Notes under the pieces: generated by a model | Told to the model about the DNA's origin: nothing | Databases searched by the model: none | The model's input: only the letters and a program-made list of their open reading frames with translations | In this document: in pieces, positions 1 to 12,474 of the stretch | How positions within the stretch are numbered: position 1 is the stretch's first letter | How the letters are laid out: each line of letters starts with the position of its first letter | Translations under genes and position numbers: made by a program | Source of the DNA: an uncultured Alphaproteobacteria bacterium | Lineage (GTDB): Bacteria; Pseudomonadota; Alphaproteobacteria; HIMB59; GCA-002718135 | Length of the DNA stretch: 40,948 nt | Assembly: GCA_902575375.1 (NCBI GenBank) | Contig: CACGRD010000008.1 | Coordinates: 1-40,948 of the forward strand | Direction: 5' to 3'

Positions 1-520
1 TTTTCATGTCATCATAGTAATTGTTGGCAATTGAATCTGTAATTGTCATTGGTCCAGGTAGCGTAATTTTAACTGGGTTTTTTGTAAATTGTTGTGCACT
101 CTTCCAGTCTAAATGCATACGTATTTCTTTACTTGAAATTGGTGCAACAATAGTTGGAAGGTCAGCTTCGAACGCACCCTGTCTTACTGACTTATGTGTA
201 ACTTCCTTAAAACTTACACCATTTAAAAATCGACATTGATATAATACATAACTCTCGCGCCTAACTTCCCCATCTGTTGGAACATCAATACCCGCACTTA
301 CTTGATCAGTTATAACTTCTTTAATTGCTGCCAAAAATAATTTTTCAGCATCCGCACCTGCAGACTCTAATGCTTTTTCATATGCGCCAGGTGACCAATT
401 TGATAATAATCCTTTTGATGCTTTTCTCTCTTCTTCTGATTTTGTCCCTAAAAACCAATCTTGAATGGGTGTTTGTTTAGGTTTTGGATAAGCACCTATT
501 GTAGTTGTTGTAAGAGGCAT
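1..520 (-). CDS. MetE-like cobalamin-independent methyltransferase, short form (partial, C-terminus missing)
   Basis: Partial gene running off the left edge; the first 173 residues are visible. It starts at an ATG (complement of 518-520) preceded by a GGGAG ribosome binding site. The protein opens with TTIGAYPKP, then AGIDVPTDGEVRRESY and LPGPMTITD. These resemble the C-terminal catalytic domain of cobalamin-independent methionine synthase, which transfers a methyl group to homocysteine at a zinc site. Beginning directly at the IGAYPKP-type motif means the N-terminal half of full MetE is absent, as in the family's short stand-alone members. The zinc ligands would lie in the missing part. The true methyl donor of such short forms is often uncertain. 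It follows the binding-protein gene on the same strand but is separated from it by a strong hairpin. Confidence 0.8.
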   Translation of the reverse strand, partial: MPLTTTTIGAYPKPKQTPIQDWFLGTKSEEERKASKGLLSNWSPGAYEKALESAGADAEKLFLAAIKEVITDQVSAGIDVPTDGEVRRESYVLYQCRFLNGVSFKEVTHKSVRQGAFEADLPTIVAPISSKEIRMHLDWKSAQQFTKNPVKITLPGPMTITDSIANNYYDDMK

Positions 521-607: not shown

Positions 608-1861
608 TTACATAAGATCGTTTATTTCTTCCATCATTTCTTCTTGAAGATCTGCCATATCATCAGCGTCGCCTGTAGCAATTTCTTCCGTGTAATCATA
701 GATTACCTGTGTAACAGCTAATCCATTTTCTCCAGGATATGCAAACCAATCTGCAAGAAGTGGAAGTTGTTCAACAGCAGTAAGTTTATTAGGGTTTTTA
801 CTATAGAAATCTCCTAATAATTCATTCGCTGCTTTGTTTGGTGGAACATATCCAGTTGTTTCAGCGACTAATGCAGCACCGATACCTGATGTAATGAACT
901 TTAAGAAAGTCCATGCAGCATCAACTCTTGCTGGGTCATCAGATGTAGACACTAACATTGCAGCGTTTCCACCTGCTGGTAATCTTGCTGGTGTTCCATT
1001 GTTTACTCCAGCCATTCCAGGGAACGGTGCAGTTTTTAGAACGAAGTCTGCCTTTGCAGCATTAACTGAACCCAAGCTTGAAGTAGACCAGAACATCATA
1101 CCAATAGTACCTGCGTTAAACGCAGCTTGACCATCAGCAATTGAGTAGTTTGGCATATTACATCCACTCATGATTGCTTTCATTTGCTCTAACGTTGCAA
1201 GTCCTGCATCACCACCCATATTTACAGCTCCATCTTTAACCATTGGAACATTCTGAGTATGCATTAATGCTTGGTGGAACCAGTTACCTGTGATGTTCCA
1301 ACCAAAGTATAGAGTTCCTTTACCTGCTGCTTCCAATTTATTACATGCTGCAATAACTTCGTCCCAGTTAGTTGGAATACTATCTACACCTGCTTCAGCT
1401 AATAAATCCATGTTATAATATCCAACTGGCGTTGATACAGAAAATGGTAATCCATAAACTTCACCACCGAATGTTGAAAGACTTAACATAGCAGAATGGT
1501 AACCATCTTTTTCAAAAGCTGCCTCTTTTGCAATAAATGGCTCTAAAGACTTTGCAATACCTTTATCAACTAGAGGTGCTTGTCTGTTAAGACCTTGCAT
1601 CGTTACATCTGGTAAATTACCTGAAGTAGACTCTCTGAAGATTGTTGCAGTTGCATCCTCATAGTTTTCATAAGTTGCTCTAAATTTAACTTGAATATCT
1701 GGATGTGCTTTTTCAAACTCTGGCATAATAGCTTGAAACGTAACATCGAATAATCCTGAATAAGGATAAGCTACTTCTATTTCAATAGACTTAGCTGAAT
1801 TAACAGAACCATAAAAACCGAAAGCTAATACGGCTGCCAATCCTGTAATTAATTTTTTCAT
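608..1861 (-). CDS. UgpB-like periplasmic binding protein of a CUT1-type ABC transporter
   Basis: 417 residues with a clear signal peptide (MKKLITGLAAVLAFGF, cleavage near NSA at about residue 23) and no lipobox. It belongs to the extracellular solute-binding protein family 1 that includes UgpB (glycerol-3-phosphate) and sugar-binding proteins. Motifs seen include AYPYSG near the mature start, GNLPDV, FWSTSSLG, and ETTGYVPPNKAA, which resembles the UgpB segment carrying a ligand-binding Tyr. A GGAGG ribosome binding site precedes the ATG. No permease adjoins it on this strand. The matching ATPase and permeases are on the other strand at 4854-7829, across phnY and phnA. From that context I infer an organophosphorus ligand (phosphonate or phosphate ester), but a sugar ligand is possible. 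A strong terminator follows, typical of highly expressed binding proteins. Confidence 0.85.
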   Translation of the reverse strand: MKKLITGLAAVLAFGFYGSVNSAKSIEIEVAYPYSGLFDVTFQAIMPEFEKAHPDIQVKFRATYENYEDATATIFRESTSGNLPDVTMQGLNRQAPLVDKGIAKSLEPFIAKEAAFEKDGYHSAMLSLSTFGGEVYGLPFSVSTPVGYYNMDLLAEAGVDSIPTNWDEVIAACNKLEAAGKGTLYFGWNITGNWFHQALMHTQNVPMVKDGAVNMGGDAGLATLEQMKAIMSGCNMPNYSIADGQAAFNAGTIGMMFWSTSSLGSVNAAKADFVLKTAPFPGMAGVNNGTPARLPAGGNAAMLVSTSDDPARVDAAWTFLKFITSGIGAALVAETTGYVPPNKAANELLGDFYSKNPNKLTAVEQLPLLADWFAYPGENGLAVTQVIYDYTEEIATGDADDMADLQEEMMEEINDLM

Positions 1862-1941
1862 TTAATCCTCCGATTGAATATAATAATTTAATCTAACATG
1901 TAGCCGCAAAGGGTTACAATTTTATTACGAAAATATTACTA

Positions 1942-1959
1942 AAAAATAAGCTTATTTTT
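1942..1959. other. 18-bp perfect AT-rich palindrome between phnY and the binding-protein gene
   Basis: AAAAATAAG followed by its exact complement CTTATTTTT (1942-1950 and 1951-1959), 38 bases past the phnY stop codon and 80 bases upstream of the binding-protein start. On either strand it would fold into an A/U-rich hairpin with a U-run, so a weak bidirectional terminator or a protein-binding palindrome are both possible. The rest of 1862-1996 shows only the GGAGG ribosome binding site at its downstream end. Chance occurrence in AT-rich DNA is a real alternative. Confidence 0.35.
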
Positions 1960-1996
1960 CCACAGCAATAAAGAAAAATTAGAGAAAAAATGATTT

Positions 1997-3439
1997 TTAC
2001 CAGGGTAGTGAGAAGGTTTTTACATTTGTAAAGCTTTTCATTGCTTCAATTACACCTTCTTTATAACCAAGACCTGAATCTTTAATTCCTCCAAAAGGAG
2101 ACATTTCAATTCTATAGCCTGGAACTTCCCAAATATTTACAGTTCCAACATTTAAGCCTTGAATATATTTTTTTGCTCGCATGAAGTTATTTGTACATAC
2201 ACCAGATGATAATCCGAATGCAGTTGAATTAGATATTTTCATTACAGCTTCATCGTCTTTAGGCACACGAATGATTGGTATAACTGGACCAAATGTTTCT
2301 TCTAAAACTAATTCACTTTTAGGATCAACATGATCTACAACTATTGGAGGTAACAAAGCACCCTTTCTTCCAGGGTGATATAAAATTTTTGCACCGTCTT
2401 CTTCAGCCATAGAAACTCTTTTATCAAAAAGTTCTGCAGCTTGAGCATTAACAACAGTGCCTAAGTCTGTTTCCATATTCATAGGATCACCAAATTTAAT
2501 TTTCTTAGCACGCTCGAGAGCCATTTCAACAAATTGATCTGCAATGGATTCTTGAACCAGTATTCTTTTAACAGCTGTACAACGTTGACCAGAGTTTTTC
2601 GTTGCTCCAGTAACAGCTAGCTCAACAGCTTTTTTAAGATCATCACCATCTAAGTCATTTAAAACAATTAAAGGATCATTACCACCAAGCTCAAGAACTG
2701 TTCTTTTGTATCCAGCTTGTTCAGCAATTAATTTTCCTACACCTACACTGCCTGTAAAAGTAATTAGATCAATATTTGGATTCTTGATCATTTCTGATCC
2801 GATATCTTGAGGCCATCCAGTTACAACTGAAAACATTTCTGGTGGTAAACCTGCTTCATATAAAACATCAGCGAGTACCATTGCTGTTAAGGGTGTTAAT
2901 TCTGTTTGTTTACATACAGTACAATTATTAGTTGCAATTGAAGGTGCAATTTTATGCGCTACCATATTCAAAGGATGATTAAATGGAGTGATTGCCGAAA
3001 TTGCCGTTAAAGGTTCTCTTATGGTAAATATTTTTCTCGCTTTTCCATGCGGAGTTAAATCACAAGAAAATATTTCTCCATCATCAAGAATACAAAGTTG
3101 AGCCGTTAATGAAAAGACATCAAAAGCTCTTCCTACTTCGTATAAAGAATCTTGTTTTGAGATACCAAGTTCTAAAGTAATAATATCAGAAATTTCTTCT
3201 TTTCTTTTAACAAGTACTTCTGCAGCAGTTTGAAGAATTTTTTGTCTCTCGTATCTTGTAAGTTTAGGTTGGTAATTTGCAGCAATATCTAAAGCCTTTC
3301 TTGCATGCTCTGCAGTACCGGCTGGAACCGTTCCGATTACTTCACCTGTAAAAGGGTACTCAACATTTATTGTTTTATCTGAAGTAACTTTTTCTCCAGC
3401 AATACGCATTGCTTCATTAATCATTTTTTTGTGCATCAT
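1997..3439 (-). CDS. phnY: Phosphonoacetaldehyde dehydrogenase PhnY
   Basis: 480-residue aldehyde dehydrogenase. In the 2-aminoethylphosphonate pathway, PhnY oxidises phosphonoacetaldehyde to phosphonoacetate with NAD+ in the cytoplasm. Seen in order: oxyanion Asn (TPFNHPLN, residue 154), cofactor Lys (CKQTE, 177), general base Glu in LELGGNDP (250), and nucleophile Cys in [11 protein letters not shown] (287). The [11 protein letters not shown] segment and the [13 protein letters not shown] segment are characteristic of the PhnY group rather than of betaine or succinate-semialdehyde dehydrogenases. Its ATG overlaps the phnA stop codon by four bases, so the two are translationally coupled. Calling the substrate phosphonoacetaldehyde rests heavily on this partner. 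No phnW aminotransferase gene is present in the window. Confidence 0.9.
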
Positions 3440-4677
3440 AGGGCTCCGTTAATTGCATAGTAAAATGCATCATAGTTATATAATTGTTTGTTAGTATCTA
3501 AATTTTGTAATTTTAAATTTGATATGAATGGCACTTCTCTTTCATGAAGTCCACCGTGTGAACGTAAAGGTTCATTTAATCCAGAAAGATTGTGTTTATC
3601 TTCTGATGAACCAATAGTCATAAATTCTGAAGACATACATATAATATCCCCCATTCTATCTGGAGGTAAATTATAAGTAGAGCATCCTTCGTCTTTTGTT
3701 AAAACAACTTCTATATCTTTTATTTCTTTTATAGCATTTACAACTGTATCTATCTTACTTTTTTCTTCTAAATAAATTGTTGCAAAAGAACCAAGTGAAC
3801 CATGATGCACGACATATGGATCTGTAATTGGTAGAATAACTTTGGCCATGTTTGGTTCAAATTTTTTATCTAAATAATCTTGTAAAAATATTGCATTAGG
3901 TGAACCATCTTCTTTTGATTTTGGTTTCATACCGTGATCTGCGGTGATGATTATAGAAACATTCTCCTTATTTAAAAGACCAATATATTTATCAAACATT
4001 GCATAAAATTTATTTGCTGTTTCATTTCCTGGTGCATATTTGTGTTGAATATAATCCGTAGTCGATAAATACATGATATTTGGTTGGAACTCTTCAAGAA
4101 GCTTTACACCTGCAGCCATTACAAATTCAGAAAGTCCTTCAGAGTATACTTCTGGCACTGGCATCCCTAACCAATCGTTTACATTATCTATACCATTGAG
4201 ATCTTTTGTTGCTTGATCAGATTTTTCAGCAGAAAAACAAATAGCTCTCTCATCATCAAAACTTAATCCATTTCCTAAAAGTGTTCTCAGCTTATCTTTT
4301 GCAGTAACAAGAGCAATTTTAGAACCAGAATTATAAAATTTTTCAAAAATAGTTGGTGCTCGCATATATTTTGGATCATTCATCATTACTTCTTCACCGG
4401 TCTCGGGTGTATAAAAGAAGTTCCCGCATATACCGTGAACAGAACTTGGTTGGCCTGTTACAATCGAAATATTATTTGGATTTGTAAAACTTGGAATAGC
4501 GCTGTGTACTAGTAGGTTTTCACCACTTGCAATTAATTTATCAAGGTTTGGTGTAAGATTTGATTTTGATGCTTCTTCGAGATACTCTTTTTGACTGCCA
4601 TCAAGGCAAATCACAATAGCAGTTTTTGAAAAATTACTTGGATACTCTCTTTTATTAATTTCTAAGTTATCGGACAC
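3436..4677 (-). CDS. phnA: Phosphonoacetate hydrolase PhnA
   Basis: 413 residues, alkaline phosphatase superfamily (nucleotide pyrophosphatase/phosphodiesterase branch). PhnA cleaves the C-P bond of phosphonoacetate to acetate and phosphate using two zinc ions. The full active site can be placed: Asp26 (CLDGS), nucleophile Thr65 (SFTNPNN), Asp208 and His212 (TTDYIQH), Asp247-His248 (TADHGM) and His374 (RSHGG). A Lys pair in TAKDKLR (127, 129) sits where substrate contacts are expected. The segment [13 protein letters not shown] and HGICGNFF are typical of PhnA. The start is GTG (complement of 4675-4677) with only a weak ribosome binding site. It is the first gene of the minus-strand phnA-phnY unit and divergent from the transporter operon. 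Confidence 0.93.
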
Positions 4678-4757
4678 AATTTCATCTAATATATATTATT
4701 AAAAATAAGAATTTATAGTTATCTGCTAGTTAAACTCAATGATAATTTGAATATTTG

Positions 4758-4790
4758 TTAATAAAATTGAAATAAAACTGAAATAAATAG
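4758..4790. promoter_or_regulatory. Three phased 11-bp repeats, Pho-box-like, in the phnA/transporter divergent promoter region
   Basis: Three tandem 11-base units (4758-4768, 4769-4779, 4780-4790) share the core AATAAA; the last two both carry TGAAATAAA (4768-4776 and 4779-4787). The 11-base phase is that of PhoB sites. Against the enterobacterial Pho-box consensus, 4767-4784 matches 13 of 18 positions, with TC replaced by AA in both half-sites. A TAAAAT hexamer at 4794-4799 lies nine bases downstream, about where a -10 would sit in a PhoB-activated promoter for the ATPase gene. This is an inference from spacing; AT-rich background makes some match likely. The rest of the 176-bp spacer holds no other structure I can support. 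Confidence 0.45.
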
Positions 4791-4853
4791 ATTTAAAATA
4801 TTCTCAAATTTAATAAAATTTTGTAGATTAAAGTTAACATAGAGGGGGAATGA

Positions 4854-5987
4854 GTGGGGACTATATCACTTAAAAATATTTCAAAGTCATTTGGATCTAC
4901 ACAAGTACTTAATAATTTGAATGTTGATATAAACGATGGAGAATTCTTAACATTAGTTGGTCCATCTGGTTGTGGTAAATCCACGTTACTTAGAATAATT
5001 GCAGGATTGGAACAACAAACTTCAGGTGATGTATTAATAGATAATAAAAATGTAAATAGAGTTAGAGCCAGTGAAAGAGATTTGGCAATGGTATTCCAAT
5101 CATATGCTCTTTATCCTCATCTCACAGTAAGAAGAAATTTAGAAACTCCATTAAGACTTAGAGATTATAATGCATTTGAAAGACTACCCTTGATTGGTAA
5201 TTTTTCTCCAAGCAAAAAAGAGAAAACAGAATCTATAAATCAATTAGTAAATAAAACTTCTGAAACTCTAAAAATTTCAGAACTATTAGATAGAAAACCT
5301 GGACAATTGTCAGGTGGTCAAAGACAAAGAGTTGCTCTTGGTCGTGCTATGGTTAGAGAGCCTGTTGCCTTTTTAATGGATGAGCCTCTTTCAAATTTAG
5401 ATGCGGCTTTGAGAGTTCACATGCGTTCTGAACTATCTGAACTTCATAATTCACTTAAAACTACTTTCGTGTACGTTACACATGATCAAGCAGAAGCATT
5501 AACTATGTCTTCTAGAATGGCTGTTATGATTGATGGAAATTTATTACAACTTGATACACCTCAAGAAGTATATGACAATCCTTCCTCATTAAGTGTGGCT
5601 CAGTTTGTTGGAAGTCCAAAAATAAATATATTTAAAGGAACTTCGGACTCAAGTGGGACAGTAAGTTTTCTCAACGTTAATTTAAAAAGAAAAAGTTCTG
5701 AAAGTAATACAGATTTACATATTGGTATTCGACCAGAACATTTAGAAATTACAAATGAAAGTAATGACAATACATTTAGTGGAACAGTTGCATATAGAGA
5801 AAATTTAGGTTCAGATATTTTCTTTCATATAAATATTGAAGACGGTTCAAATAAAATAATTGTAAGGGGCTTACCACAATTTACACACCAAATTTCAAAC
5901 GGTTCTAGTGTGAATATTAAAAGAGTTTCAGATAAAGCATTACTATTTAATCAAGCAGGAATGAGAGTTCAATTTACTAATGCATAA
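4854..5987 (+). CDS. CUT1-type (UgpC/MalK-like) ABC transporter ATP-binding protein
   Basis: 377 residues. Walker A GPSGCGKST (36-44), Q-loop Gln82, signature LSGGQRQ (152-158), Walker B ending in MDEP (175-178), H-loop His210, then a C-terminal TOBE-like regulatory domain containing IGIRPEHLEI. It would power import through the two permeases that follow. The helical region between Q-loop and signature holds about 17 more residues (around 105-125) than is usual in UgpC/MalK. I choose the GTG at 4854, five bases after the strong AGGGGG (4843-4848); an ATG at 4850 lies in another frame and terminates after seven codons. It overlaps the next gene by eight bases. Its binding protein is probably the one at 608-1861. 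Confidence 0.9.
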   Translation: MGTISLKNISKSFGSTQVLNNLNVDINDGEFLTLVGPSGCGKSTLLRIIAGLEQQTSGDVLIDNKNVNRVRASERDLAMVFQSYALYPHLTVRRNLETPLRLRDYNAFERLPLIGNFSPSKKEKTESINQLVNKTSETLKISELLDRKPGQLSGGQRQRVALGRAMVREPVAFLMDEPLSNLDAALRVHMRSELSELHNSLKTTFVYVTHDQAEALTMSSRMAVMIDGNLLQLDTPQEVYDNPSSLSVAQFVGSPKINIFKGTSDSSGTVSFLNVNLKRKSSESNTDLHIGIRPEHLEITNESNDNTFSGTVAYRENLGSDIFFHINIEDGSNKIIVRGLPQFTHQISNGSSVNIKRVSDKALLFNQAGMRVQFTNA

Positions 5988-6936
5988 TTCAAAAGCTCAC
6001 ATATGGTTTATTGCACCAGCAATCATACTGATGATAATTATTTTAATCTTTCCTCTTTTTCTTGCAGGAGGAATTTCTTTTACTGACTATAATTTAGGAA
6101 ACAAAACATTCGAGTGGGTTGGACTAGAAAATTATGACAAAATGTTCAATCGCAAAACATATGTCAAAATGATTTGGGCCACAGCGACGTATGTTATTGT
6201 TGTCGTTCCAATTTCTGTTGTACTTGGATTATGTGCTGCTATGCTCTTAAATTCACTAAGGTTTGGCGCTGATATATATAAAACAATTTTCTTTCTTCCA
6301 GTTATGGCAACTCTTCTTGCAATGGCAATTGCATGGGAATTTACTCTTCATCCAACATTAGGAATTGTAAATAGTTTTTTAGCAAATGGGTGTGGAGGAG
6401 TTAGGGAATTCATTCTTGGTTTTCATTGGTTACCATGGGTAGACTCACAAGAAAGCTGGTACGCTGTAGCATGTGCAAACAACATGGATTTTCCATATTG
6501 GTTAAAACAAAAAAATACTGCGATTTGGACAGTATGTTTCATAGGAATTTGGCAGGCTTTTGGTTTTAACATGGTTTTATATTTAGCTGGTTTAACAAGC
6601 ATACCAAGAGAGTTATACCAAGCTGCAGAAATGGATGGGGCTAAATCTACTTGGGAACAATTTAAGCTTGTTACATGGCCAATGCTTGGTCCAACAACGT
6701 TGTTTGTTGTCACTATTACTACCATTAGAACATTTCAGGTATTTGATACCATCGAAATACTCACCAAAGGTGGTCCATCGAAAACAACGTATGTCATGAT
6801 GTATGCAATCTTTGAAAAAGCTATTCAACAAAACTTAACCAGTATTGGTGCAGCAATCACTGTTGTCTTTATTGGATTTATTCTTGTGTTAACGTTTTTT
6901 CAAAGATATGTCATTGAGAAGAGGGTTCATTATTAA
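5980..6936 (+). CDS. CUT1-type (UgpA-like) ABC transporter permease 1
   Basis: 318-residue inner-membrane permease of the binding-protein-dependent transport family. It starts with a long hydrophobic helix (residues 8-30) and has about six membrane segments. The cytoplasmic EAA loop is ELYQAAEMDGA (211-221), which docks on the ATPase. Between residues 136 and 180 there is an extra loop, largely hydrophilic and aromatic, with Cys138 and Cys165. UgpA and MalF-like short permeases usually have a much shorter link here. The gene overlaps the ATPase gene by eight bases and shares one base with the next permease start (TAATG). Confidence 0.88.
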   Translation: MHNSKAHIWFIAPAIILMIIILIFPLFLAGGISFTDYNLGNKTFEWVGLENYDKMFNRKTYVKMIWATATYVIVVVPISVVLGLCAAMLLNSLRFGADIYKTIFFLPVMATLLAMAIAWEFTLHPTLGIVNSFLANGCGGVREFILGFHWLPWVDSQESWYAVACANNMDFPYWLKQKNTAIWTVCFIGIWQAFGFNMVLYLAGLTSIPRELYQAAEMDGAKSTWEQFKLVTWPMLGPTTLFVVTITTIRTFQVFDTIEILTKGGPSKTTYVMMYAIFEKAIQQNLTSIGAAITVVFIGFILVLTFFQRYVIEKRVHY

Positions 6937-7829
6937 TGGAAGCTAAACAATATATTGGAGAAGGTTGGAAACATGCAATCTTAATTATTGGTGCTATCGT
7001 AGTGATGCTTCCTTTTTATATGATGGTTTCTATGTCATTAAAATCTCAGCAAGAAATCCAATCAATTTCTGGTGGTCTTATTGGTGCGCAAGAAACTCAA
7101 ACGTTTCCCGTATGTGTTAAAACTGGTTATTCAGAAGAAACATGTACAATGAAGCCATATCAATACAACTATTGGTTTGCATTTGAAAAAGCCCCTATTC
7201 CTAGATACTTAATGAATGGTGTCATTGTTACTTTATCAATCTTCATTATTCAGGTTTTAGTCGCCTTACCGTGCGCATATGCACTCGCCAAGTTACGGTT
7301 TTACGGACGAGAATTTGTTTTCTCGATGGTTTTATTTTGCTTGCTCATTCCAGTTCACGGAATTGCACTTCCATTATATGTTATGTTGGCCCAGGCAGGA
7401 TTAGTTGACACCTATTCCGCCTTAATACTCCCCTGGACCATATCGGTGTTTGGAATCTTTTTAATGCGGCAATTCTTTATGACTGTGCCCGATGAATTAA
7501 TTGATGCTGCCAGGATGGATGGCATGGGAGAGTACGCAATCGTATGGAAAGTAATGCTTCCAACTGCAATACCAGCGTTACTTGCTTTTGCAATATTCTC
7601 AGTTGTTGCGCACTGGAATGATTATTTCTGGCCTCGTATGGTAATAACAGGAAATAGAGACCTCTTTACTCCGCCTCTTGGTATAAGAGAATTCAGAGGT
7701 GGGATTGATAGTGACGAATTTGGTCCTATGATGGCTTCAATAGTTACTGTAACTGTTCCTCTTATTGTTGCTTTTATAATCGCGCAAAAACGATTTATTG
7801 AAGGAATTACTTTGACAGGCATGAAGTAA
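6936..7829 (+). CDS. CUT1-type (UgpE-like) ABC transporter permease 2
   Basis: 297-residue inner-membrane permease, second half of the translocation pore. It has a first helix at about residues 13-34 and the EAA loop ELIDAARMDGMG. After the first helix a loop contains Cys60 and Cys70 (PVCVKTGYSEETC), a stretch longer than in typical UgpE, where the chain goes almost directly to the ENY/YWFAF segment. With the cysteine-bearing loop of the partner permease this suggests a distinctive subfamily with possible periplasmic disulfides. It begins within the stop codon of the upstream permease gene and is followed after 14 bases by an EamA transporter gene. Confidence 0.88.
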   Translation: MEAKQYIGEGWKHAILIIGAIVVMLPFYMMVSMSLKSQQEIQSISGGLIGAQETQTFPVCVKTGYSEETCTMKPYQYNYWFAFEKAPIPRYLMNGVIVTLSIFIIQVLVALPCAYALAKLRFYGREFVFSMVLFCLLIPVHGIALPLYVMLAQAGLVDTYSALILPWTISVFGIFLMRQFFMTVPDELIDAARMDGMGEYAIVWKVMLPTAIPALLAFAIFSVVAHWNDYFWPRMVITGNRDLFTPPLGIREFRGGIDSDEFGPMMASIVTVTVPLIVAFIIAQKRFIEGITLTGMK

Positions 7830-9275: not shown

Positions 9276-10514
9276 ATGTTTAAGGTACTACAAAACACTT
9301 GGGCCCTTTTTTTTGGTTTTGCTTTAATTAGTCTTGGTCATGGTTTGCAAGGAACGCTAATCGGTGTTCGTTCTGTTTTAGAAGGTTTTAGTTTTTTTGC
9401 ATCGGGGCTTATTATAGCTGGTTATTACGTTGGATACTTAACTGGCGCATTAACAATTCCAATTTTTTTACAACGTGTTGGTCACATAAGAGTTTTTGCC
9501 GCTTTAGCATCGCTTGCTTCTATCGCTATATTATTACACTCAGTATTTGTTCATCCTTATTCATGGATGTTTATACGAATATTAACTGGTTTAAGTCTAG
9601 CTGGAATTTATGTAATCATGGAGAGTTGGTTGAATGAAAAATCAAATAATCAAACTCGCGGTCAATTACTTTCCGTTTACATGATTATTACTTTTGTATT
9701 TGTTGGAGCAGGACAATTTTTATTAAATTTAGGCGATCCAGCTAAAGTTGATTTATTTATTTTAGTATCGATCTTATTATCATTCGCACTTCTTCCTATT
9801 CTTTTGTCTTCAACTGAACAACCTAATACAGAAAGTCCTAAATTTTTTTCTTTAAGAGAATTTTATACAGTTTCACCTCTAGGTTTTGTTGGCGCGTTAG
9901 CTACTGGTTTATCGCATAGTGCAGTTTTTGGTTACGGTGCAATTTATGCATCATCTATTAATTTAAGCTTATTTGAAATTTCTCTATATATGATGATTAT
10001 AACGTCAGCTGGCGCCCTATCTCAATGGCCTATTGGATATTTGTCAGATAGAATTGATAGACGTGTTATTCTTATTGGTGTTTCTTTTATGGCTTCAGGT
10101 TTGAGTTTATTTTTTGTTTTTGCAAACTTTATGCCTCTAACATTGTTCTTAATTTTTACTGGTCTTTTTTCAGTTGCATGTTTACCAATGTATTCACTTA
10201 CGGTTGCTCATACAAATGACTTCTTACAACCTAATGAGATAGTATCAGCAAGTGCAACCTTTGGTATACTTATTGGTATTGGATCAATTATCGGACCTTT
10301 GTTTGTTTCTGGATTCATGGAAATTTTGGGAGCGGTAGGTTTTTACATCTATTTATTTTTAATACATGGACTACTAGGACTGTTTGGATTGTATAGAATG
10401 ACACAAAGAACTAAACCACGTGATCTTGAATCACAATACAATCCTTTACCGCGAAATATTAGTCCTGCCGGTATGGAAATGAACCCCGTTACTGAACCAA
10501 CTGAGGACGAGTAA
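9276..10514 (+). CDS. MFS transporter, YcaD-like
   Basis: 412 residues, twelve predicted membrane segments. LGHGLQGTLIGVRSVLEGFS at the first helix and LSDRIDRRVILIG (the major-facilitator loop 2/8 type signature) mark an MFS transporter of the YcaD-like group. A hydrophilic C-terminal tail of about 35 residues (from TQRTKPRD) is probably cytoplasmic. Substrate unknown. It is the last gene of a plus-strand run that starts with the ABC ATPase at 4854, although the small zinc-protein genes before it look functionally unrelated. Its last 26 bases overlap the 3' end of msrQ on the opposite strand. Confidence 0.82.
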   Translation: MFKVLQNTWALFFGFALISLGHGLQGTLIGVRSVLEGFSFFASGLIIAGYYVGYLTGALTIPIFLQRVGHIRVFAALASLASIAILLHSVFVHPYSWMFIRILTGLSLAGIYVIMESWLNEKSNNQTRGQLLSVYMIITFVFVGAGQFLLNLGDPAKVDLFILVSILLSFALLPILLSSTEQPNTESPKFFSLREFYTVSPLGFVGALATGLSHSAVFGYGAIYASSINLSLFEISLYMMIITSAGALSQWPIGYLSDRIDRRVILIGVSFMASGLSLFFVFANFMPLTLFLIFTGLFSVACLPMYSLTVAHTNDFLQPNEIVSASATFGILIGIGSIIGPLFVSGFMEILGAVGFYIYLFLIHGLLGLFGLYRMTQRTKPRDLESQYNPLPRNISPAGMEMNPVTEPTEDE

Positions 10515-11094
10515 GTCTTTTAAAAATTCTGTGAAGTAATAAGAGGATAATTATTCCCATATAAATGACTGGTTCAGTTTTATCAGCACGAACTAAAACA
10601 TAAAAATGCATACTAGCCAGAATGGCTACTGGGTAAATTAAATAATGAATTTTCTTCCATAATTTAAAACCTAATCGTTTAATCATATTGTTTGTTGAAG
10701 TGCTAGCAAGTGGGATTAAAAAAAGAAAACTTATAAAACCAAAAGTTATAAATGGTCTTTTTATAATATCTTGTATGATAAATTTAATATCTAAAAAATG
10801 ATCTAAAACTATGTAAGTGGAGAAATGCAAACAGACATAATAGAAAGCAAAAAGTCCAATCATTCTTCGTAATACAACTATAGATTTTAAAGGTTTAATA
10901 TTTGATAGAGTAGTAATCATAAGAGTTATTATTATTAATCTGAGTGCCATTAGACCTAACTCATCCATTAGTTTTTCAATTGGATTTACTCCAAGATTAC
11001 CATTAACAAATTGGTACGCCCAGAGAAGACTTGGGAAAAGAATTAAAATAAATAAGACAGGTTTACTGCGGTTAAAATTTCTTGTTGAAAACAT
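10489..11094 (-). CDS. msrQ: MsrQ, membrane heme subunit of the periplasmic methionine sulfoxide reductase
   Basis: 201 residues with five to six membrane helices, ferric-reductase-like domain. MsrQ passes electrons from the inner membrane to periplasmic MsrP, which repairs oxidised methionines in envelope proteins. Candidate heme-binding histidines are visible in CLHFSTYIV and in IHYLIYPVAILASMHFYV. The RRMIGLFAFYYVCLH segment is typical of the family. It starts three bases after the msrP stop codon. The C-terminal coding end overlaps the convergent MFS gene by 26 bases. Confidence 0.92.
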   Translation of the reverse strand: MFSTRNFNRSKPVLFILILFPSLLWAYQFVNGNLGVNPIEKLMDELGLMALRLIIITLMITTLSNIKPLKSIVVLRRMIGLFAFYYVCLHFSTYIVLDHFLDIKFIIQDIIKRPFITFGFISFLFLIPLASTSTNNMIKRLGFKLWKKIHYLIYPVAILASMHFYVLVRADKTEPVIYMGIIILLLLHRIFKRLTRPQLVQ

Positions 11095-11097
11095 TCA

Positions 11098-12015
11098 TTA
11101 ATAAAATTTAGTTAAATCTAAATCTTTATAGAGATGTGCTACTTCTTCTTCATAGCCATTAAACATAAGTGTTTCTCTTCTTTTAAACTCTCCAATTCGT
11201 CTCTCTGTTCCTTGACTCCATCTTGGATGATTAACATTAGGATTAACATTAGCATAAAAACCATATTCCCAAGGAGCTAAAGTTTCCCATGATGTTTCAG
11301 GTTGAGTATCTAAAAATCTAATTTCCACAATTGATTTAATTGATTTGAAACCATACTTCCATGGAACAACTAATCTTATAGGTGCACCATTTTGATTAGG
11401 CATTTCATGACCATACAATCCAGTTGCTAATATTGTTAGAGGATTCATTGCTTCATCCATTCGAAGCCCTTCTCTATATGGCCAGATAATTGTTCTCTTT
11501 TGCTGACCTGGCATTTCTTCCGGTCTGAACACAGTTACAAATTGAACATACTTTGCTGAGCTTAAAGGTTCGGCCATTTTTATAAGTTCAGATAACTGAA
11601 AACCTTGCCAAGGAATTACCATGGACCAAGCTTCAACACATCTTAATCGATACACTCTATCTTCTATTGTTACATTTGATAAAATTTTTTCTAAGTCAAA
11701 TGTTTGAGGTTTTTTCACAAGACCATCTATTTTTATTGTCCATGGCCTAGGTTTAAAATTTCCAGAATTTAAATGGGGATGTTTTTTATGAGTCCCAAAC
11801 TCATAAAAATTATTGTAAGTTGTGATTTCTTCGTACGAATTAAGTTTGTCGTTTTCATTTAGATTTTTAGTATAAATTGAAAGATCACTATCGTGGTTTG
11901 CAAATGCTGATGAGGTAACCGTTGCTAGCATGGCGCTAGCTAAAGATCCCTTTATAAACTTACGTCTATTTAAATATGTCTTATAGGGTGTGATTTCAGA
12001 TCCTAAAATTTTCAT
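11098..12015 (-). CDS. msrP: MsrP, periplasmic molybdopterin methionine sulfoxide reductase
   Basis: 305 residues, close to the usual length. A Tat signal carries the twin arginine in NRRKFIKGSL (Arg17-Arg18) with cleavage near AFA (residue 39), so the folded cofactor-loaded enzyme is exported. YNNFYEFGT (67-75) and the molybdenum ligand Cys126 in RLRCVEAWSM are diagnostic. PEEMPGQ and GAPIRLVVPWKYGFKSIKSI complete the oxidoreductase molybdopterin domain. It pairs with msrQ three bases downstream and follows a cytochrome c gene by about 50 bases. Confidence 0.95.
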   Translation of the reverse strand: MKILGSEITPYKTYLNRRKFIKGSLASAMLATVTSSAFANHDSDLSIYTKNLNENDKLNSYEEITTYNNFYEFGTHKKHPHLNSGNFKPRPWTIKIDGLVKKPQTFDLEKILSNVTIEDRVYRLRCVEAWSMVIPWQGFQLSELIKMAEPLSSAKYVQFVTVFRPEEMPGQQKRTIIWPYREGLRMDEAMNPLTILATGLYGHEMPNQNGAPIRLVVPWKYGFKSIKSIVEIRFLDTQPETSWETLAPWEYGFYANVNPNVNHPRWSQGTERRIGEFKRRETLMFNGYEEEVAHLYKDLDLTKFY

Positions 12016-12066
12016 AATAATAATATATATCTTAAATATTAAAATTGAAGATTTGCTTTAATAATC

Positions 12067-12474
12067 TTAGCTTTTAAAATGGGAGTTATATTTATTTAGT
12101 ATTTTTTCTGGCCATGTACTTTTGATAAATTCAAGAATAGACCAAACATCTTCATCTGATAACGCATCATTACCAAGCATTTTACCTTCATAATCAGGAT
12201 TTGATTTATTAAAACCATATTTAATGACATGAAATAATTGTGCAGGAGAGTGGTGCCAAGTGTGCCCAGTGCCATTAAGAGGAGGTGCTCTTCTATGACC
12301 ATCTTCATCTAACGATTTATCCCACTCTTCATGACCTGCTAAATTACCCATATGACACCCTGCGCAATTTTCAGCATATAGTTTCATCCCTTTGAAAATA
12401 TCAACTTCTGCTGCATGCATACTATGTCCAATACATAATACTATAAGTACCGAAATTAATTTAAGGGTTTGCAT
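12067..12474 (-). CDS. Small monoheme c-type cytochrome
   Basis: 135 residues. A signal peptide (hydrophobic to about residue 19, cleavage near HAA) precedes the single heme motif CAGCH (37-41). The probable sixth ligand is Met99 in GKMLGNDALSDEDVW, followed by the terminal helix typical of class I cytochrome c. An unusual His-rich stretch (GTGHTWHHSP) lies between. It is the first gene of a minus-strand group with msrP and msrQ. MsrP normally receives electrons from MsrQ, so a cytochrome here could feed or drain that system, or simply be co-regulated; this is inference. Confidence 0.88.
   Translation of the reverse strand: MQTLKLISVLIVLCIGHSMHAAEVDIFKGMKLYAENCAGCHMGNLAGHEEWDKSLDEDGHRRAPPLNGTGHTWHHSPAQLFHVIKYGFNKSNPDYEGKMLGNDALSDEDVWSILEFIKSTWPEKILNKYNSHFKS

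Follow-up and report, generated by a model that had tools for sequence, protein, structure and literature searches.

A CUT1-type transporter joined to phnY and phnA at a contig end in an AEGEAN-169-type alphaproteobacterium suggests a module for hydroxyethylphosphonate use

The window analysed was one whole contig of 40,948 nucleotides (CACGRD010000008.1; G000:C8:1-40948) from an uncultured alphaproteobacterium, whose assembly G000 comprised 1.09 Mb and was 66% complete; relatives of the same genus and the same order, which we take to be HIMB59/AEGEAN-169, have genomes of 0.7-1.6 Mb. The window starts at the contig end inside an operon, and the operon is therefore cut. At this end, an ABC transporter of the UgpB/CUT1 kind encloses phnY and phnA with its two halves, and every gene listed in a preliminary description of the window was found in place. 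The features are given below, with scores in bits against the curated cut-off of each family model.

2-520, reverse strand: MetE-like gene cut by the contig end, its open reading frame (ORF) open there; the full-length relative at L060:5359-6438 matched PF01717
608-1861, reverse strand: CUT1-type substrate-binding protein; NF008211 (UgpB), 66 against 411
1997-3439, reverse strand: phnY, phosphonoacetaldehyde dehydrogenase; TIGR03250, 797 against 636; solved homologue 4i3t
3436-4677, reverse strand: phnA, phosphonoacetate hydrolase; TIGR02335, 467 against 408; solved homologue 3szy
4678-4853, no strand assigned: divergent intergenic region with a weak Pho-box-like direct repeat at 4768-4784
4854-5987, forward strand: UgpC/MalK-type ATPase of the transporter; NF008653, 387 against 432
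5980-6936, forward strand: first permease (UgpA-like), 103 against 335; PF00528
6936-7829, forward strand: second permease (UgpE-like), 128 against 297; PF00528
7844-8692, forward strand: EamA-type membrane protein; best match TIGR03340, 142 against 288

PhnY and PhnA both passed their curated models and aligned over nearly their full length with the solved homologues (PhnY with 4i3t, E 1.2e-247; PhnA with 3szy, E 3e-160). The PhnA motifs CLDG, FTNPNN, TTDY.QHKYAPG, TADHG and RSHGG were identical in the alignment with 3szy, as was the PhnY motif GQRC in the alignment with 4i3t, and these motifs hold what we take to be the catalytic residues. The statement in the preliminary description that both enzymes carry the expected residues was thus borne out. 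Its assignment of the transporter to the sugar/glycerol-phosphate type flanking phnYA was also correct, except that all four subunits, although UgpB/CUT1-like, fell below every Ugp cut-off.

The linkage was surveyed in 151 related genomes, many of them 53-90% complete, so that single absences mean little, and closely related to one another, so that the counts are not independent events. Matches were obtained for PhnA in 109 genomes, an iron-type alcohol dehydrogenase (Fe-ADH) in 86, a phosphoesterase relative in 83, the binding protein in 79, PhnW in 77 and AepX in 16. PhnA and the binding protein occurred together in 78 genomes from two families; in 75 of these they shared a contig, always 1,577-1,700 bases apart, and in the other three (G031, G032 and G078) they lay on different contigs. 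A wider named collection yielded 201 confirmed relatives of the binding protein, and neighbourhoods were taken from the best 80. Seventy-three of these loci (77-100% identical) belonged to this group and were largely from the same genomes as the survey, hence not a second sample; all eight genes stood in one order in 65 of them, and in the remaining eight all missing genes fell on the flank cut off by a contig end. Transporter and phnYA belong together, and their linkage is not due to chance. This upholds the coupling proposed in the preliminary description, whose refuting case, relatives of the transporter that never adjoin phnYA in other genomes, does not apply: the CUT1-type transporter stands beside phnYA across two families.

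The course of the operon beyond the contig end could be read from relatives. At locus L060 (genome G038), the binding protein, PhnY and PhnA were 95%, 99% and 96% identical to those of the window. Beyond the binding protein came the MetE-like gene, an Fe-ADH (L060:4242-5354, reverse strand) and a 368-residue protein, followed on the opposite strand by a metallophosphoesterase (L060:2340-3128, forward strand), a ureidoglycolate-lyase-like protein and PhnW (L060:582-1679), which exceeded the curated cut-off of TIGR02326 (461 against 401). The Fe-ADH found its best family in TIGR03405, 'Phn_Fe-ADH', over the whole model. It was present in 75 of the 78 genomes that combine PhnA with the binding protein; the three exceptions are G000 itself, G068 and G141, whose contigs stop at or just short of that point. 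Among the other 31 PhnA genomes, seven had the Fe-ADH and 24 had none; in six of the seven it lay one gene's length from phnA, beside phnY and without this transporter, and in G143 it was on another contig. The 368-residue protein (L060:3133-4239, reverse strand) matched no family over its cut-off and adjoins phnYA or the Fe-ADH in the genus; a distant relative (32-38%) lies at L046:15556-16668 (reverse strand), close to the sister-family cluster.

Comparison of the loci showed that the PhnY-PhnA core is fixed, while entry enzymes and importers swap around it. In the genus, a cassette without the transporter (L043, L053 and L057) runs PhnW, lyase-like protein, phosphoesterase, 368-residue protein, PhnY, PhnA and EamA; the Fe-ADH is added to it in L055, L056 and L144, and the Fe-ADH, MetE-like gene and transporter in L045, L051 and L060. 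The EamA-type gene, whose best family is named 'phosphonate utilization associated putative membrane protein', adjoins phnYA in the genus with or without the CUT1-type transporter. In the sister family, one version (L046-L048, L058 and L059) consists of Fe-ADH, MetE-like gene, binding protein, PhnY and PhnA, with the ATPase and both permeases divergent. A second version (L041; the same gene set by similarity in L042 and L049) has PhnA, PhnY, an FAD oxidoreductase (TIGR03364, 339 against 285), EamA, AepX (523 against 393), an ATPase and a permease.

The two families differed in PhnW. In the genus of the window, PhnW was found in 51 of the 57 genomes with the transporter, and phnW shared a contig with phnA at a distance that was most often 7.7 kb. 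Of the sister family, 20 genomes carry the module (five of them at least 90% complete); they gave no match to PhnW or phosphoenolpyruvate (PEP) mutase and none to PbfA over the cut-off. Weaker PbfA matches occurred in all 20, as expected of related aminotransferases, and the TIGR03364 oxidoreductase was found in one (G129, which also has AepX). The Fe-ADH is therefore the one recognised enzyme that could feed PhnY in the sister family.

These counts bear on the possibility that the transporter imports 2-aminoethylphosphonate (2-AEP) or a conjugate of it for a PhnW-PhnY-PhnA pathway, with the Fe-ADH as an accessory. The presence of PhnW in the same cluster of most transporter genomes of the genus speaks for it, as does the rarity of AepX, seen in 4 of the 78 transporter genomes, since another 2-AEP importer may then be needed. 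This explanation was nevertheless judged unlikely, because the 20 sister-family genomes have the transporter and no PhnW match, and because PhnW stands beside phnYA in the genus also where the transporter is missing (L043, L053 and L057).

The preliminary description had reported that phnW was absent and had concluded that phosphonoacetate or phosphonoacetaldehyde might be the imported compound. The absence held for the window, for the incomplete G000 assembly, which gave no match, and for the sister family; within the genus it was an effect of truncation and was set aside as evidence on account of the contig end. The conclusion drawn from it was not supported, given the number of same-genus transporter genomes with phnW and the Fe-ADH that travels with the transporter. 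Direct import of either compound would agree with the position of PhnY and PhnA between the two transporter halves, but it gives the Fe-ADH no role; it was set aside as the principal explanation and appears very unlikely.

Since a phosphonate-type Fe-ADH travels with the transporter, the gene content points to an alcohol phosphonate. The reading we prefer, to which we give about an even chance (roughly 0.5), is that the window preserves the cut end of a phosphonate-alcohol module with the order Fe-ADH, MetE-like gene, binding protein, PhnY and PhnA and, divergently, the ATPase and two permeases. The compound imported by the CUT1-type transporter would be 2-hydroxyethylphosphonate (2-HEP), probably esterified to glycerol or a sugar, and the neighbouring metallophosphoesterase, where present, would release 2-HEP from the ester. 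The Fe-ADH would then oxidise 2-HEP to phosphonoacetaldehyde, PhnY would convert this to phosphonoacetate, and PhnA would yield acetate and phosphate; no ethylene would be made on this route. In the genus, PhnW would provide a parallel entry for 2-AEP. A role of the Fe-ADH as 2-HEP dehydrogenase is the simplest reading of its context and family: it belongs to a family that links phosphonoacetaldehyde and 2-HEP, and its neighbours are PhnY and PhnA in genomes where PhnW gave no match.

The Fe-ADH was also followed outside these loci. At E<=1e-70 it was found in 9 of 385 sampled genomes of the class, one in this order and eight outside it. Locus L162, from another order, carries one run of an Fe-ADH over the TIGR03405 cut-off (L162:9316-10464, reverse strand; 458 against 424), PhnD (TIGR01098, 213 against 112), an ATPase, two ORFs placed as permeases, PhnA (552 against 408) and PhnY (61% identical to that of the window); the 20 kb read contained no match to PhnW. 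This run supports the Fe-ADH step. In a small, SAR11-looking genome (G513; 1.24 Mb, 30% GC), PhnA (494 against 408) shares L158:8247-18822 with an aldehyde dehydrogenase, the Fe-ADH and an EamA-like gene; a PhnD-family system lies close by, and no PhnW match was found in the stretch read. The aldehyde dehydrogenase is betaine-aldehyde-dehydrogenase-like and not PhnY by score (256 against 636); it may possibly replace PhnY there. Four further loci (L156, L157, L159 and L160) pair the Fe-ADH with an ABC ATPase and a PhnD-like protein, the latter named by eye only, and gave no phnYA match in the stretch read. At L141:4848-11002 (G143:C52), one run holds UgpB (569 against 411), permeases, an ATPase, a SpdA-like phosphoesterase and an Fe-ADH (416 against 424), with PhnA on another contig of the same genome.

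A relative in the same order stands in a biosynthetic setting. At L163:8016-11428 (G126:C39), an Fe-ADH follows ppd (363 against 313) and pepM (378 against 320) amid genes resembling those of surface-polysaccharide synthesis; its best model was also TIGR03405, with 206 bits. The combination of ppd and pepM leads via phosphonoacetaldehyde to 2-HEP (PMC8931226). Lockwood et al. noted phpC among the genes of 2-AEP operons and proposed that its product forms 2-HEP, with PhnW supplying the route from 2-AEP (PMC9381506), and both their proposal and the G126 copy favour an Fe-ADH that works in the reducing direction, from phosphonoacetaldehyde to 2-HEP. A route via PhnW does not fit genomes without PhnW, such as the 20 of the sister family; PEP mutase exceeded its cut-off in one of the 151 relatives, namely G126, which is not among the 20; and the adjacent PhnY and PhnA would destroy the precursor. 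Synthesis of 2-HEP in the sister family was set aside on the lack of PhnW and PEP mutase matches, and the reducing direction is held to be highly improbable for the operon enzyme.

The binding protein belongs to the SBP_bac_1/8 CUT1 type, with no phosphonate-binding family among the matches listed; neither of the AepX/PhnS models (TIGR03261 and TIGR03227) was among the five families listed for it (E<=0.001). The third-best model of the ATPase was PhnT2, a putative 2-AEP transporter ATPase, below its cut-off (305 against 458). In the AlphaFold model of the binding protein (mean predicted local distance difference test score, pLDDT, 82.9), the nearest fold was UgpB with glycerophosphocholine (6r1b; Z 41.7, root-mean-square deviation 2.7, 382 residues aligned), followed by maltose-type proteins and other UgpBs (Z 38.6-39.9), a dinucleotide-binding protein (up to 38.5) and sulfoquinovosyl-glycerol and sulfoquinovose-binding proteins (Z 37.1-37.9); matches within 1 Z count as tied, and a common fold says nothing on the ligand. 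The CUT1-type transporter is a candidate for a new class of phosphonate importer.

Import as an ester is proposed because relatives of the transporter often lie beside a phosphoesterase, because marine 2-HEP occurs in polysaccharide esters and because the fold is UgpB-like; this step is the weakest link of the proposal. Some of the same evidence would suit a transporter that supplies phosphorus in general, from glycerol phosphates or other phosphodiesters, and merely shares a phosphorus island with phnYA. In favour of such a role, the nearest fold is UgpB with glycerophosphocholine, and all 8 plasmid loci have a phosphoesterase after the binding protein; one also adjoins the transporter in 3 of 7 other loci outside the order (L137, L138 and L140). 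We regard it as quite improbable in this order, given that the transporter genes enclose phnY and phnA in a fixed order in two families, that the sister-family cluster has the Fe-ADH but no phosphoesterase, and that the Ugp cut-offs are not reached. A second CUT1-like binding protein with permeases was seen beside a phosphoesterase at L054:1-3266 (G088), in a genome with the Fe-ADH and without this transporter.

Several findings weigh against import and oxidation of 2-HEP by this module. The MetE-like gene is left without explanation in the pathway. The operon Fe-ADH in this order scored 363 (the L060 copy), 373 and 383, below the curated cut-off of TIGR03405 (423.7, about 424), although TIGR03405 is by far its best family, and the pepM-linked copy of G126 is only about 31% identical to it; the identities came from a table without L161, the eighth locus from outside the order, whose row was out of frame (12-24% identical to the others), and the tree, in which the pepM-linked copy had a very long branch, was not used. 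The six genomes of the order with the Fe-ADH beside phnY show that the transporter is not needed for the enzyme step. In the sister family the cluster contains no phosphoesterase, and only distant matches to it (35-36%) turned up elsewhere, in 8 of the 20 genomes that carry the module. G149, a genome outside the order, yielded the binding protein (63%) without a match to PhnA, none of the eight plasmid loci has phnYA within 10 kb, and of the seven loci outside the order among the best 80 (about 64-69% identical), phnWAY was present in one. That locus, L139, from a Boseongicola metagenome-assembled genome (MAG), has PhnW-PhnA-PhnY about 6 kb from the transporter behind a LysR-looking gene (by eye).

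The remaining neighbourhoods outside the order were diverse. In L136 (a Thiotrichales MAG), a MetE-like gene (54%) separates the transporter from AepXVW-like genes, and L135 ends after the binding protein. At L139:6735-15878, three genes come after the transporter: an aminotransferase that exceeds the gamma-aminobutyrate (GABA)-transaminase cut-off (531 against 507), a zinc alcohol dehydrogenase and one for an isomerase-like protein. ORFs of these three kinds were recognised, by eye only, in L134 and L143 as well. With this set, the transporter family perhaps serves a different substrate pathway. The family is thus not tied to phosphonates everywhere; it is tied to them within this order.

Elsewhere in the window, the direct repeat between phnA and the ATPase gene is Pho-box-like with an 11-base spacing; it is one of two matches in the window, a number reached in 11 of 100 shuffles, and the signal is therefore weak. 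At 10489-12474 lie genes that, judged by eye only, resemble those for methionine sulfoxide reductase MsrPQ and for a cytochrome c.

Marine dissolved organic matter is rich in 2-HEP esters, which occur there bound to polysaccharides (PMC9381506, PMC5649143), and esters of 2-HEP and methylphosphonate account for up to 20% of the phosphorus in its high-molecular-weight fraction (PMC9381506). Use of 2-HEP in isolates goes with C-P lyase and release of ethylene (PMC5649143). AEGEAN-169 is known to carry phnY and phnA, with the first step missing in 30% of 'Ca. Nemonibacter', and AEGEAN169 is reported to account for as much as 6% of the cells in the South Pacific Gyre (PMC11366302). Oxidation of 2-HEP as an entry to the hydrolytic pathway was hypothesised for PbfF, which is from another enzyme family, and ruled out for that enzyme by Ruffolo et al. 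(PMC12366243). Among the titles and abstracts listed by searches of open-licence articles in PubMed Central, a set without subscription journals, none concerned a Ugp/CUT1-type transporter with phnYA or a 2-HEP dehydrogenase feeding PhnY, and 'phnA' was not found in passages of PMC10734472 and PMC10308909.

The module suggests, but does not prove, growth of AEGEAN-169-type ocean bacteria on hydroxyethylphosphonate, one of the major phosphonates of the sea. If so, an Fe-ADH/PhnY/PhnA route would give acetate and phosphate and no gas in an open-ocean lineage, and the published reading of phpC-like genes in catabolic operons would be reversed. A wider proposal, which we offer tentatively and with the odds somewhat against it, is a complete ethylene-free and C-P-lyase-free route for marine 2-HEP esters, in which AEGEAN-169-type cells would combine a dedicated CUT1 phosphonate-ester transporter, an esterase, a 2-HEP dehydrogenase, PhnY and PhnA, and in which other Alphaproteobacteria, among them one with a small SAR11-like genome, would use the same enzyme step with a PhnD-type importer.

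Compared with known systems, the cluster is a genuine and conserved variation on the PhnYA pathway in which the entry module is new. It shares the final two steps with the PhnW-PhnY-PhnA pathway for 2-AEP, PhnY and PhnA both passing their models, but the entry enzyme linked to the transporter is the Fe-ADH and the sister family has no PhnW match. The Fe-ADH resembles the phosphonoacetaldehyde reductase PhpC/Pdh in having TIGR03405 as its best model, as does the G126 copy beside ppd and pepM, and differs from it in standing beside PhnY and PhnA and in its low identity to that copy. PbfA, PbfC, PbfD and PbfF likewise act as additional entry enzymes around PhnYA or PhnX, although they are a lyase, FAD enzymes and a racemase (PMC12366243), in contrast to the Fe-ADH here. 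The transporter has the subunit make-up and fold of UgpBAEC, and its nearest solved structures are UgpB proteins, but its four subunits lie below the curated cut-offs and its binding protein is 20-24% identical to solved UgpB. The AepXVW and PhnCDE importers likewise serve phnYA loci in relatives (AepX in L041 and a PhnD-family protein in L162), whereas the binding protein of this cluster is of the CUT1 kind.

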